From assembly GCF_000299335.2 (NCBI RefSeq), contig NZ_CP004387.1, forward strand, positions 310,001 through 374,000: a stretch of 64,000 nt of DNA, given 5' to 3'. The stretch is from Isoalcanivorax pacificus W11-5 (GTDB lineage Bacteria; Pseudomonadota; Gammaproteobacteria; Pseudomonadales; Alcanivoracaceae). Below, piece after piece: positions 10,678 to 35,931 of this stretch. The notes under the pieces were generated by a model that worked only from the letters and a program-made list of their open reading frames with translations, was not told where the DNA came from and did not search any database. Within the stretch, counting starts at the first letter, position 1, and each line of letters starts with the position of its first letter. A program made the translations under genes and the position numbers.

Positions 10678-10693
10678 TGGCATGCATTTTGCT
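10678..10693 (+). promoter_or_regulatory. Sigma54 promoter of glnA
   Basis: TGGCATGCATTTTGCT fits the sigma54 -24/-12 consensus (TGGCAYG-N4-TTGCW) completely. With the two NtrC sites upstream it should drive glnA under nitrogen limitation. Transcription would begin near 10704, giving a leader of about 120 nt. Confidence 0.88.
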
Positions 10694-10825
10694 CACTCTG
10701 TGGGCAAGGACGTCCGGCGCCTGCGCCGTGACACAACGAATACATCACGAGTTTGTCTCACCACCTGTCCGGAGCAGACTACCGGGCCGGTCACATTTCA
10801 CGCTGTTCCAGGAGGACGCTTCACC

Positions 10826-12232
10826 ATGTCTGCAAAGACTCTGAAACTGATCAAAGAGAATGACGTCAAGTGGGTGGACCTGCGCTTCACCGACAGCCGC
10901 GGTAAGGAACAGCACGTTACCTACCCGGCCGCAGACGTCGATGACGATTTCTTCCAGGACGGCAAGATGTTCGACGGTTCTTCCATCTCCGGCTGGAAGG
11001 GCATCAACGAATCCGACATGATCCTGATGCCGGACGACGATTCCGCCGTGATTGACCCGTTCACCGACGTGGCCACGGTCAACCTGCGTTGCAACATCGT
11101 CGAGCCGACCACCATGCAGGGCTACGACCGCGACCCGCGCTCCATCGCGCAGCGCGCTGAAGAATATCTGAAATCCACCGGCATCGCGGACACCGCGCTG
11201 TTTGGTCCGGAGCCGGAATTCTTCGTATTCGATGGCGTGAAGTGGAATTCCGCCATGAACGCCCAGTCCTATGAAATCTACTCTGAAGAAGCCGCCTGGG
11301 TTGCCGGCGAAGACTTCGACAAGAACAACATCGGTCACCGCCCGCGCGTGAAAGGCGGTTACTTCCCGGTACCGCCGGTGGACAGCCTGCACGACCTGCG
11401 TGCAGCCATGTGTGCGGCCATGGAACAGATGGAACTGCGCGTTGAAGTGCACCACCACGAAGTGGCCACCGCTGGCCAGTGCGAGATCGGTGTTGGCGCG
11501 GCCACCCTGACCCGCAAGGCTGACGAAGTCCAGATCCTGAAATACTGCATCCACAACGTGGCGCACGCTTACGGCAAAACGGCGACCTTCATGCCGAAGC
11601 CGCTGATCGGCGACAACGGCTCGGGCATGCACGTGCACCAGTCCCTGAGCAAAGACGGCAAGAACCTGTTTGCCGGCGACGTCTACGGTGGCCTGTCTGA
11701 GATGGCGCTGTACTACATTGGCGGCATCATCAAGCACGCCCGCGCCCTGAACGCGCTGACCAACCCGTCCACCAACTCCTACAAGCGTCTGGTGCCGGGC
11801 TTCGAAGCGCCGGTGATGCTGGCCTACTCTGCCCGCAACCGTTCTGCCTCGATCCGGATTCCGTTCGTGCCGAACCCGAAAGGCCGTCGTATCGAAACCC
11901 GTTTCCCGGACCCGGCCGCCAACCCGTACCTGTGTTTCGCGGCACTGCTGATGGCGGGCCTGGACGGTATCCAGAACAAGATCCACCCGGGCGAAGCGAT
12001 GGACAAGGACCTGTACGACCTGCCGGCCGAGGAAGCGAAGAGCATCCCGACCGTGGCGCACACCCTGACCATGGCGCTGGACGAGCTGGAAGCCGATCAC
12101 GAGTTCCTGCTCAAAGGCGACGTGTTCTCCAAGGACATGCTCGACGCCTACATCGAACTCAAGCGCCAGGACATCGAGCGCCTGAACATGACCCCGCACC
12201 CGGTCGAGTTCGACATGTACTACTCCGTGTAA
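10826..12232 (+). CDS. glnA: Glutamine synthetase, type I (GSI-beta)
   Basis: ATP-dependent synthesis of glutamine from glutamate and ammonia, in a cytoplasmic dodecamer. The 468 residues match the family length. The adenylylation loop DLYDLP, whose Tyr is the regulatory site, is present near residue 397, so the enzyme should be controlled by GlnE. Metal and substrate motifs such as [21 protein letters not shown] and [14 protein letters not shown] are intact. The ATG at 10826 with AGGAGG upstream is chosen; a longer frame to 10682 would run through the sigma54 promoter. Regulation by NtrC/sigma54 is visible upstream. The terminator behind it has been duplicated by a mobile element. Confidence 0.98.
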
Positions 12233-12257
12233 GACCTCCCGGTCTTCGCACGTCGAA

Positions 12258-12280
12258 AAGAGCCCCCTCTCGGGGCTCTT
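12258..12280 (+). terminator. glnA: glnA terminator hairpin, proximal copy
   Basis: 9-bp stem AAGAGCCCC / GGGGCTCTT with a 5-base loop. The T-run after it is now cut short by the inserted element (only TT before its CAGACTG end). The same 23-nt hairpin occurs again directly after the element at 12472-12494. Confidence 0.85.
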
Positions 12281-12471
12281 TCAGACTGAGGACAAACCCC
12301 TGTTTTTATGAATCACCTCTTCGAGGCGATATAAAAGTGGGTGGTCGCATTCCAGGTTGCAGCCCTATGGCTATGCAAGTGGAGGCTATCACCAGAAAAA
12401 CAGCGACTCTTTGCCCTGGGTGGATAATTTTTTAGTAGAAGAATGGCTGCCGAGGTTTGTCAGCAGCCTGA
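12281..12471 (+). mobile_element. 191-bp MITE-like element inserted in the glnA terminator, copy 1
   Basis: The ends are imperfect inverted repeats: TCAGACTGAGGACAAACC on the left, and TCAGGCTGCTGACAAACC as the complement of the right end (15 of 18 match). The element is base-for-base the same as the copy at 35716-35906. It is flanked by two identical copies of the 23-nt terminator hairpin, as expected from duplication of the target. It encodes no transposase. One frame gives about 38 residues (MQPYGYASGGYHQK, later FLVEEWLPRFVSSL), which could be the tail of a parental protein. It probably moves in trans using a transposase elsewhere. Confidence 0.8.
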
Positions 12472-12494
12472 AAGAGCCCCCTCTCGGGGCTCTT
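12472..12494 (+). terminator. glnA: glnA terminator hairpin, distal copy
   Basis: The same 23-nt hairpin as at 12258-12280, here followed by TTCG after TCTT. It restores a terminator behind the mobile element. Between it and the next gene (12495-12583) nothing else stands out. Confidence 0.8.
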
Positions 12495-12583
12495 TTCGTT
12501 TCCGTGACCGGTGCATGGCTGCCGCCTTTGTTTTCCGTCCGGCGGCGTCGCACAATCGACGGGACGACCACGGAGTTTCTCGC

Positions 12584-13261
12584 ATGGCTTATCCGCGCAT
12601 CTTACTGACCTCGCTGCTGGCCTTGCTGTCAGGGGCGCTGCTGGCGCCGGCCCAGGCCCAGCTGCAGGTTGACACCCAGACCCAACCCACGGACCCGGAC
12701 AGCCAGGCGGAGCCGGTACCGGAGGCGCCCGCCAATCGCATTTACCGCATGCGGGATGAACAGGGCCGGGTGATCTTCACCGACACGCCGCCGGAGGGCG
12801 CGCAGGCGCAGGAAATCCGGCCGCGCCAGCCAAACAGCATGCCGGCGCCACCAGCGCGCGCGCCGCGTGAGCAGGCCCCGCCCGCGCCGGTCGCCGCGGG
12901 TTATTCAACGCTGGAGATCGTCTCGCCAAGCCACGAGCAGACCTTTCAGAACCCGCATGAGCCGATCCCGGTACAGGTAAATCTGGCACCGCCACTGCAG
13001 TCCGGGCATAGCCTGCGGGTGCTGGATAATGACCAGCCGCTGGACGAGCTGGTGCTGACCTGGCCGGAGCGGGGCACCCACGCACTGCGCGCCCAGGTGC
13101 TGGACGCCGACGGTGAGGTGCTGAAGGAATCCGACACAGTGACCATCTACGTTCATCGCCACAGTGTCCTGCTCGGTCCTGGTGCCCGGCGTGACAAGGA
13201 CAAGGACGAAAAACGGACTGGTCTGGTGCAGTTGCTCCCCTGGGTGCCCGATACGAACTGA
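12584..13261 (+). CDS. DUF4124 domain-containing secreted protein
   Basis: The 225-residue exported protein has a signal peptide ending near AQAQ (residue 25) and an acidic linker. A DUF4124 segment follows, with the typical IYRMRDEQGRVIFTDTPP pattern, then a Pro/Ala-rich linker and a C-terminal Ig-like domain (residues about 105-200, with PHEPIPVQV and TVTIYVHRHS). Function is unknown. A DUF4124 gene between glnA and ntrB is a recurring arrangement in related bacteria, so a link to nitrogen regulation is possible but only positional. The start ATG gives a proper signal peptide, with GGAG 8 nt upstream. Confidence 0.8.
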   Translation: MAYPRILLTSLLALLSGALLAPAQAQLQVDTQTQPTDPDSQAEPVPEAPANRIYRMRDEQGRVIFTDTPPEGAQAQEIRPRQPNSMPAPPARAPREQAPPAPVAAGYSTLEIVSPSHEQTFQNPHEPIPVQVNLAPPLQSGHSLRVLDNDQPLDELVLTWPERGTHALRAQVLDADGEVLKESDTVTIYVHRHSVLLGPGARRDKDKDEKRTGLVQLLPWVPDTN

Positions 13262-34324: not shown

Positions 34325-34401
34325 GTGTTTTGGGCAATAGAACAGTATGTATAGCTGTCCCGGCTGTTGACCGGGATGTTGGAAAGACCAGGGAGACCAG
34401 C

Positions 34402-35679
34402 ATGTCGGATGATTTCAAGCAGGCGGCGCTTGATTACCACGCCAAGCCCCGACCGGGAAAAATCAGTGTCGAGATCACCAAGCCCACCGAAACGGGCGCG
34501 GATCTGACGCTGGCCTACAGCCCGGGCGTGGCCGAGCCGGTGCGTGAAATTGCCCGAGAGCCGGAGCTGGCCTACCGCTATACCTCCAAGGGCAACCTGG
34601 TGGCCGTGATCAGTGATGGCACCGCCATCCTGGGCCTGGGCGACCTGGGGGCGCTGGCGTCCAAGCCGGTGATGGAAGGCAAGGGTATTCTGTTCAAGCG
34701 CTTCGCCGGTATCGACGTGTTCGATATCGAAGTCGAGGCGGAGAGCCCGCAAGCCTTCATTGATACGGTCACCCGCATCCACGTCACCTTTGGCGGCATC
34801 AATCTGGAAGACATCAAGGCGCCGGAATGCTTCGAGATCGAACGCATTCTCAAGGAACAGTGTGATATCCCGGTATTCCATGACGACCAGCACGGCACCG
34901 CCATTGTCTGCTGCGCCGGCCTGCTCAATGCGCTGACCTTGCAGCAGAAGAAAATCGAAGACATCGTCGTCGTGTGCGTCGGTGCCGGCGCCGCCGGTGT
35001 CGCCTCGATCAAGCTGATGATCGAGCTGGGCGTGCGCAAGGACAACATCCTGATGCTGGATCGCAAGGGTGTGATCCACAGCCGTCGCGATGACCTGAAC
35101 CAGTACAAGGCGGCGTTTGCGGTGGACACCGACAAGCGCACGCTGGCCGATGCGCTGAAGGACGCCGATGTGTTTATCGGTGTCTCCGGCCCGGACATGC
35201 TGACGCCGGACATGGTCAGCAGCATGGCGCCGAACCCGATCATCTTTGCCCTGGCCAACCCGGACCCGGAAATTCGCCCGGAACTGGCGCGCTCGGTGCG
35301 GCAGGACCTGATCATTGCCACCGGCCGCTCGGATTACCCGAACCAGGTCAACAACGTGCTGGGTTTCCCCTACATTTTCCGTGGTGCGCTGGATGTACGC
35401 GCCAGCGCCATCAACGAGACCATGAAGCTGGCAGCGGTGCATGCGATTGCGTCACTGGTCCGTGAGCCGGCACCGGAAGTGGTGTCGCGCGCCTACGGCG
35501 GCCAGACACTGACGTTTGGCCCGGAATACATCATTCCAAAGCCGAACGACCCGCGCCTGCTGGGCGTGGTATCGGCGGCAGTGGCCCGTGCTGCGGTGGA
35601 CACCGGCGTCGCCCGCAAGGGCTACCCGGCCCACTATCCGCTGGAAACGGTGGACGATATCTTCCCCGGCGAGCTCTGA
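34402..35679 (+). CDS. maeB: NAD(P)-dependent malic enzyme, short form
   Basis: Oxidative decarboxylation of malate to pyruvate. 425 residues: an N-terminal malic domain with LAYSPGVAEPVREIA and the metal/acid motif VFHDDQHGTAIV, then a Rossmann domain (VVCVGAGAAGVASI). The C-terminal phosphotransacetylase-like domain of long MaeB proteins is absent. The ATG at 34402 has GGGAGA upstream. The terminator behind it carries the second copy of the 191-bp element. Confidence 0.93.
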   Translation: MSDDFKQAALDYHAKPRPGKISVEITKPTETGADLTLAYSPGVAEPVREIAREPELAYRYTSKGNLVAVISDGTAILGLGDLGALASKPVMEGKGILFKRFAGIDVFDIEVEAESPQAFIDTVTRIHVTFGGINLEDIKAPECFEIERILKEQCDIPVFHDDQHGTAIVCCAGLLNALTLQQKKIEDIVVVCVGAGAAGVASIKLMIELGVRKDNILMLDRKGVIHSRRDDLNQYKAAFAVDTDKRTLADALKDADVFIGVSGPDMLTPDMVSSMAPNPIIFALANPDPEIRPELARSVRQDLIIATGRSDYPNQVNNVLGFPYIFRGALDVRASAINETMKLAAVHAIASLVREPAPEVVSRAYGGQTLTFGPEYIIPKPNDPRLLGVVSAAVARAAVDTGVARKGYPAHYPLETVDDIFPGEL

Positions 35680-35697
35680 TCGCCGGGCACAAAAAAA

Positions 35698-35715
35698 GCG
35701 GGTTTCAGAACCGCC
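35698..35715 (+). terminator. Malic enzyme terminator hairpin, proximal copy (degenerate)
   Basis: An 18-nt hairpin, GCGGGTTTCAGAACCGCC. It differs from the distal copy only in the order of two bases near its 3' end, which weakens the stem, and its T-run has been displaced by the element. It probably terminates poorly now. Confidence 0.6.
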
Positions 35716-35906
35716 TCAGACTGAGGACAAACCCCTGTTTTTATGAATCACCTCTTCGAGGCGATATAAAAGTGGGTGGTCGCATTCCAGGTTGCAGCCC
35801 TATGGCTATGCAAGTGGAGGCTATCACCAGAAAAACAGCGACTCTTTGCCCTGGGTGGATAATTTTTTAGTAGAAGAATGGCTGCCGAGGTTTGTCAGCA
35901 GCCTGA
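35716..35906 (+). mobile_element. 191-bp MITE-like element inserted in the malic enzyme terminator, copy 2
   Basis: Identical throughout to the copy at 12281-12471 and in the same orientation relative to the upstream gene. It is bordered by two copies of the local 18-nt terminator hairpin (35698-35715 and 35907-35924). Because the hairpins differ between loci and the element does not, the shared sequence ends exactly at TCAGACTG and CAGCCTGA. No transposase gene. Confidence 0.8.
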
Positions 35907-35931
35907 GCGGGTTTCAGAACCCGCTTTTTTT
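35907..35931 (+). terminator. Malic enzyme terminator hairpin, distal copy
   Basis: GCGGGTTTCAGAACCCGC forms a 5-bp stem (GCGGG/CCCGC), extended by A-T pairs, and is followed by TTTTTTT. This is the functional copy after the element and may also limit transcription from the convergent PBP1A gene. Confidence 0.8.

Follow-up and report, generated by a model that had tools for sequence, protein, structure and literature searches.

Whole-hairpin target duplications at insertions of a 189-bp MITE and an IS1182-family insertion sequence in Isoalcanivorax pacificus

The glnA locus and the two elements

The 64,000-nucleotide stretch of Isoalcanivorax pacificus W11-5 DNA analysed here (the window) contains, at 10682..12232 on the + strand (longest start in the ORF list), a reading frame that we take to be glnA, a name given in the original prediction and in keeping with the translation rather than drawn from a family search. 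The terminator of this gene is a hairpin with a 10-bp stem and a 5-nt loop, and it is present twice, at 12257..12281 and 12471..12495, as an exact 25-bp direct repeat (AAAGAGCCCC-CTCTC-GGGGCTCTTT) in which each copy comprises the full 10+5+10 hairpin; the left copy, folded alone as DNA, reaches −10.5 kcal/mol (z −4.8). Between the two hairpins, at 12282..12470 on the + strand, lies a 189-bp element reading CAGACTGAGGACAAACC...GGTTTGTCAGCAGCCTG. The prediction that two identical and complete terminator hairpins flank an element at glnA is confirmed by this exact repeat. Of the sizes it proposed, those of an identical element and a whole-hairpin repeat stand in kind, while the numbers change from 23 nt to 25 bp for the hairpin and from 191 to 189 bp for the mobile unit, since the additional T and A are part of the repeats; the boundary was fixed by comparing copies in different targets.

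The element ends in 17-bp inverted repeats that agree with each other at 14 of 17 bases. The left one (CAGACTGAGGACAAACC, 12282..12298, + strand) matches the two ends of a 1581-bp insertion sequence (IS) of the same genome at 13–14 of 17 bases, and the right one (CAGGCTGCTGACAAACC, read on the − strand, 12454..12470) does so at 14–15 of 17. Being short and devoid of a transposase, and having these inverted repeats, eight identical genomic copies and whole-hairpin duplications, the element is a MITE. A terminator-like hairpin at 12468-12445 (− strand) overlaps its right terminal inverted repeat. The idea that it is an RNA element was discarded, as its RNA fold is modest (z −2.0) and expected from the inverted ends; a search of 12000-12800 against Rfam found no family at the gathering score, and the 189-bp element had no match among the PLSDB plasmids.

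All eight copies, spread over a genome that forms one contig of 4,168,427 bases, have the same sequence, and two of them lie within the window; a 93% copy is found in G004, the closest mate in the genus. The second copy in the window (L007; 35717..35905, + strand) stands downstream of an ORF at 34330-35679 that, judging from its sequence, we presume to be malic-enzyme-like. Its right target repeat (35906..35925) is a perfect 8+4+8 hairpin, from which the left one (35697..35716) differs at two adjacent bases that weaken the hairpin (−4.5 for the left versus −8.9 kcal/mol for the right, folded as DNA). The repeats flanking the eight MITE copies (L001 to L008) measure 21, 25, 25, 25, 18, 22, 20 and 20 bp, each being a palindrome of its own sequence, and the two members of a pair are identical in seven of the eight cases, the pair at L007 being the exception. 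The MITE at L005 (near genome position 3832332) has the target hairpin, along with ~100 bp next to it, recurring on both sides.

A search for the terminal motif allowing up to 2 mismatches returned 72 matches, many of them chance hits or members of another repeat family, and among them three identical 1581-bp IS units with the ends CAGATCGCTGACAAACC / CAGACTGCTGACAAAGC. Each carries one identical 447-aa transposase ORF that matches the NCBIfam model NF033551 (IS1182) over residues 6-444 with 489.7 bits (E 1e-146; cut-off 270), as well as the Pfam families PF13751 (DDE_Tnp_1_6) and PF05598 (DUF772). With terminal inverted repeats, a single transposase gene and a length of 1581 bp, the unit has the layout of the IS1182 family, whose members range from ~1.3 to 2 kb. 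Residues D146, D276 and E403 are invariant among 10 aligned transposase sequences, and, going by the fold, are candidates for the catalytic DDE residues. A PDB sequence search with the transposase gave no match at E ≤ 1, and a structure prediction for the relative's transposase at L044 (5 sequences) was too poor for use (mean pLDDT 36.9, pTM 0.31).

The MITE and the IS are both present only in G000 and G004 among the seven genus genomes, the IS gene of G004 being a fragment at a contig end, and a search of 57 genomes, counting the one from which the window comes, found the MITE in two. Similar ends, a common target habit and this co-occurrence suggest that the MITE is probably moved in trans by the 1581-bp IS; since the ends of the two agree at just 16–17 of the 21 terminal bases, mobilisation in trans is what we infer from these features taken together.

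The IS ends have a further property. All 23 proteobacterial IS ends found by a script that tolerated G-T pairs and a single mismatch (its pattern missed the far ends of L072-L074) have a subterminal hairpin starting 7–12 bases inside the tip, and in a set of 20 of them, from which L052, L058 and L074 were omitted as near-duplicates, both-side changes were seen at three of five consensus pairs, with broken pairs in several rows. Both ends of the IS at L040 1013-2593 carry such a hairpin just inside the tip, and inspection by eye suggests a hairpin at the very tip of the Melghirimyces IS. In the MITE, the same script found no such stem at the right end and a weak A-T/G-T stem at the left, and recognition of transposon ends through hairpins of their own was accordingly rejected. 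Because the MITE ends have no comparable stem, the left one being weak, the subterminal hairpin of the IS more likely shields the transposase gene as a terminator than acts as a signal for mobility.

Target palindromes, junctions and empty sites

All 11 insertions in this genome (eight MITE and three IS copies) lie in palindromes and are bordered by whole-hairpin repeats of 18–25 bp, those around the three IS copies measuring 24, 21 and 20 bp. Under a strict definition of a hairpin end (at least 6 perfect outer pairs and a loop of no more than 8), both junctions qualify in nine of the 11, the exceptions being L005, where the outermost pair is A-C, and L007, with the two changes in its left copy. 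Such hairpin ends occur at 274 of 63,800 window positions (0.43%), and hairpin junctions are thus far beyond chance. The original prediction had expected other copies to sit in palindromic terminators with a repeat equal to the stem-loop: palindrome and stem-loop repeat were found at every copy, but a terminator was not, as a run of at least 4 T follows the hairpin at seven of the 11 targets and is missing at L003, L005, L008 and L041.

Comparison with G004 covered 10 of the 11 sites, L005 with its repetitive flanks being omitted. At seven of these (L002, L003, L004 at glnA, L006, L008, L040 and L042) G004 has one hairpin and no insertion. The alignment is good on either side at L002, L003, L004 and L006; the right flank is gapped at L008, and a good alignment is confined to the left flank at L040 and to the right flank at L042. 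The G004 hairpin is identical at L006 and differs in or near the loop at the other six sites. As for the remaining three, L007 corresponds to one hairpin of different sequence, which we excluded from the count of empty sites, L041 to a rearranged region, and L001 to other sequence. Downstream of the glnA stop codon, five other genus members likewise have one hairpin in the stretch compared. A pre-existing pair of hairpins, the outcome that would have spoken against the original prediction, was thus not seen at glnA or at the six other empty sites, and since these sites hold a single hairpin, the second one arrived with the insertion. Loss of the hairpin, as described for IS1272, is not what happened here: the hairpin stands twice at the 11 insertions (one pair with two changes) and once at the seven empty sites. 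The MITE copy of G004 itself (L039, 187 bp) is flanked by two different hairpins.

The same arrangement is common among relatives of the IS with a transposase identity of ~55% or more. Thirty insertions offered two junctions, namely 11 loci examined earlier (L044, L053-L057, L059, L069 and L072-L074, with gaps in the sequence of L057 and an incomplete gene at L059), three pairs of Zhongshania contig ends, and 16 later loci (L160-L165, L168-L171 and L173-L178). Identical whole-hairpin repeats of 17–26 bp border 24 of them: L053, L054, L055, L069, L072, L073 and L074 in the earlier set; the Zhongshania pairs L046/L049, L047/L051 and L048/L050; and L160, L163, L164, L165, L168, L169, L170, L171, L173, L174, L175, L176, L177 and L178 in the later one. 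The Zhongshania pairs were matched across contig ends through their common repeat, which makes identity there a matter of construction, with the pairing of L046 and L049 being backed by an uninterrupted ORF. In one search of the earlier set and one of the later set, the direct repeats were sought without a palindrome criterion, and the palindromicity of the repeats found in that way is therefore an independent outcome.

The other six comprise one near-identical repeat (L161, two changes), one imperfect repeat (L056) and four loci with two different hairpins (L044, L057, L059 and L162). Recombination between copies at different sites would fit the unlike hairpins at these four loci and at L039. 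At both L007 and L161, two C/G exchanges, which may be repair errors or later changes, set the 3′ arm of the left repeat apart from the right repeat.

One-sided junctions at contig ends show a hairpin at L045, L052 (the site also of L071 and L182), L058, L063, L064 (with an outer mismatch), L065, L067, L077 and L185, and a weak one with its outer base unpaired at L076; the script found none at L062, L060 carries undetermined bases, and no end was located at L061 and L066. As L063, L064, L065 and L067 come from Melghirimyces and L057 from Paenibacillus, the hairpin habit extends to Bacillota. Among distant relatives (~40% identity or below; among L078-L097, plus L166), simple searches, with the ends not worked out, found no palindromic direct repeat. 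Direct repeats do flank three of these distant relatives, with a length of 21 bp at L090, 18 bp at L096 and 54 bp at L097, but none of the three is a simple palindrome.

Our own 11 sites (with the right copy taken at L007) and the 24 relatives with identical repeats form a catalogue of 35 sites, from which unlike pairs are excluded by construction. Repeat lengths in it are 17, 18 and 20–26 bp, with stems of 6–11 and loops of 0–6, and not the constant short target duplication of a conventional transposon. The hairpin is centred exactly on the repeat at 34 of the 35 sites (fully paired at the edge in 28, with one mismatched outer pair in six) and shifted by one base at the remaining one. The first base of the repeat is always a purine (A in 31, G in four) and the last always a pyrimidine (T in 28, C in seven), so that, whichever strand is read, the ...CTG of the transposon 3′ end meets a hairpin whose 5′ foot is a purine in 35 of 35 cases. 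The arms differ widely in sequence among the sites, as in IS1272-type targeting, where an inverted repeat is chosen regardless of its sequence. When the Zhongshania contig ends L046 and L049 are joined, an uninterrupted frame of 350 residues, which we presume to be PilT/PilU-like, runs across the 17-bp palindrome; this target lies within a coding gene, and a terminator is therefore not required. The target is the palindrome rather than the terminator as such.

Within this genome, a second MITE-like family serves as an internal contrast. It is ~150 bp long (CAGGCTGTTGAAAAACA...TTTTTCAACACCCTG, with the ends CAGGCTGTTGAAAAACA / CAGGGTGTTGAAAAA), is abundant in G004 too, and was fetched from 17 places in the genome (L143-L159). 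A YTAR tetranucleotide (CTAG, TTAA and kin) adjoins 10 of its 17 left and eight of its 11 locatable right ends, with the tetranucleotides being identical on both sides in only two of 11, and none of the 17 left or 11 right ends has a junction hairpin. Similar tips alone are therefore not always accompanied by hairpin junctions, even within one genome. At L001 and L008, the hairpin into which the 189-bp MITE has inserted belongs to the end of a second-family copy. The distant IS1182 relative at L080, which starts CTAA|CAGGCTGTTGAAAAAG, is a possible mobiliser of the second family.

Proposed integration at the feet of the palindrome and competing explanations

Taken together, the case points to structure-guided integration, as the original prediction had proposed, with the palindromic targets, the equality of repeat and stem-loop and the empty sites in its support. 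We hold it highly probable that the MITE is mobilised in trans by the genome's own 1581-bp IS1182-family IS and inserts at the feet of palindromes with duplication of the whole hairpin. The position of the junctions, the whole-hairpin repeats and the gain of a second hairpin are direct observations; the predicted cleavage at the base of the hairpin agrees with product junctions lying at the foot, the cut itself being deduced from these products.

DDE transposases usually cut their target with a characteristic stagger. The transposase may instead take the palindrome as an extruded cruciform or an equivalent folded target, in which the two hairpins would be attacked at their 5′ feet, each at a purine and each by one transposon 3′ end (...CTG-OH). 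At a four-way junction the two feet would be close to each other whatever the length of the hairpin, and a fixed enzyme geometry could therefore yield a duplication of variable length. Repair of the two single-stranded hairpin arms would then leave a full hairpin on each side. The short stems (6–11 bp) speak against spontaneous extrusion of a cruciform. That there is a clade of IS1182 transposases integrating by structure alone, with a cruciform captured, the ends joined to purines at both 5′ feet and the length of the duplication set by the shape of the DNA, is a reading to which we lean only slightly.

Several other explanations have to be weighed against this mechanism. Tandem terminators exist in bacteria, and because the original prediction knew the sequence of one site only, the element could have slipped between two hairpins that were already there; the single hairpin of G004 at seven sites already refutes this for those sites, and the single hairpin downstream of glnA in five other genus members and the recurrence of identical pairs at unrelated sites with unrelated hairpin sequences make it scarcely credible anywhere. 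Random insertion, with survival only of those copies that landed in palindromic terminators, would profit from the fact that terminators are intergenic and tolerate insertions. Selection, however, would neither fix the junction at the exact foot nor equate the lengths of repeat and hairpin, and hairpins are absent from all 17 left and 11 right junctions of this genome's second MITE-like family; this very improbable explanation is effectively refuted by the precision of the junctions.

The remaining two concern the form in which the target is seen. The hairpin could be recognised as single-stranded DNA, on the lagging strand at a fork, or through its transcript rather than as a double-strand cruciform, and single-stranded hairpin targets are indeed known for other mobile elements, with seven of the 11 own targets ending, terminator-like, in at least 4 T. 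Yet the repeats cover the hairpin symmetrically (34 of 35) and the attacked 5′ foot is a purine on either strand, a pattern to be expected from hairpins present simultaneously on the two strands, while one palindrome inside a coding gene argues against the need for an RNA terminator; we regard recognition of this kind as unlikely, though worth keeping in mind. Alternatively, the transposase might bind two inverted half-sites at variable spacing in ordinary duplex DNA, with the repeat length following the spacing. Many stems are rich in GC and have A as their first base, and the targets of several relatives begin with AGGC. The wide divergence of the arms, together with stems varying from 6 to 11 and loops from 0 to 6, tells against half-sites, as does the characteristic, shorter stagger of most DDE elements, even if some families have long variable repeats, and we find this reading quite doubtful.

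Relation to known systems and significance

The IS1182 family is listed with long, variable repeats, and terminator hairpins also serve as landmarks for the bacterial group IIC introns, retroelements that insert beside them and differ in doing so without a DDE transposase and without duplication. Closer parallels come from the family itself. According to the excerpts available from the published accounts, IS1272 and TnSha1 of staphylococci, both of the IS1182 family, choose inverted repeats and terminator hairpins as targets whatever their sequence (PMC5678879, PMC4923244), and Siguier et al. 2015 are cited there for palindromic targets of some IS1182 members (PMC4923244, PMC5678879). In the IS1272 model the attack occurs at the 3′ feet and the hairpin is lost, whereas an attack at the 5′ feet, pathway b of the same model, would duplicate the whole stem-loop (PMC5678879); TnSha1 uses hairpin targets with partial deletion (PMC4923244). 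The present pair shares with both the transposase family and the hairpin targets, but IS1272 and TnSha1 remove the hairpin wholly or partly, without target duplication, and here it is kept, and kept twice. Among IS1182 transposases, the fate of the target, duplication or deletion, is also described as variable (PMC12056078). MITEPye1 of Paracoccus yeei, a small non-autonomous MITE, resembles the 189-bp MITE in its IS1182-like ends and has 4-bp direct repeats (PMC11578231) in place of whole hairpins. The excerpts available from PMC9208149 and PMC10969869 hold nothing on hairpin duplication or deletion, and text searches of the literature brought up, in the passages they returned, no paper documenting whole-hairpin duplication with empty sites; reviews or ISfinder may tabulate it.

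As far as these excerpts go, then, hairpin targeting by IS1182 elements is already in print, with whole-hairpin duplication figuring as a branch of a model, and the present case adds a new pair of MITE and IS to the IS1182 family, and with it a documented duplicating variant of that published habit. Eight identical MITE and three identical IS copies, along with empty sites, constitute recent-looking material, and a duplication that tracks the hairpin is strong genomic evidence for folded DNA as the substrate. The rule of a junction between CTG and a purine at the hairpin foot makes the published stem-loop model directly testable.

Because both terminator copies stay in place, insertion may do little harm and the element may be insulated from transcription. 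This suggests a low-damage way of multiplying, in which an element entering a terminator would leave one copy of the terminator on either side. If integration is indeed governed by structure alone, the pair would be the mirror image of IS1272, and a change of the strand position attacked at the four-way junction would switch the family between duplicating and deleting its targets.
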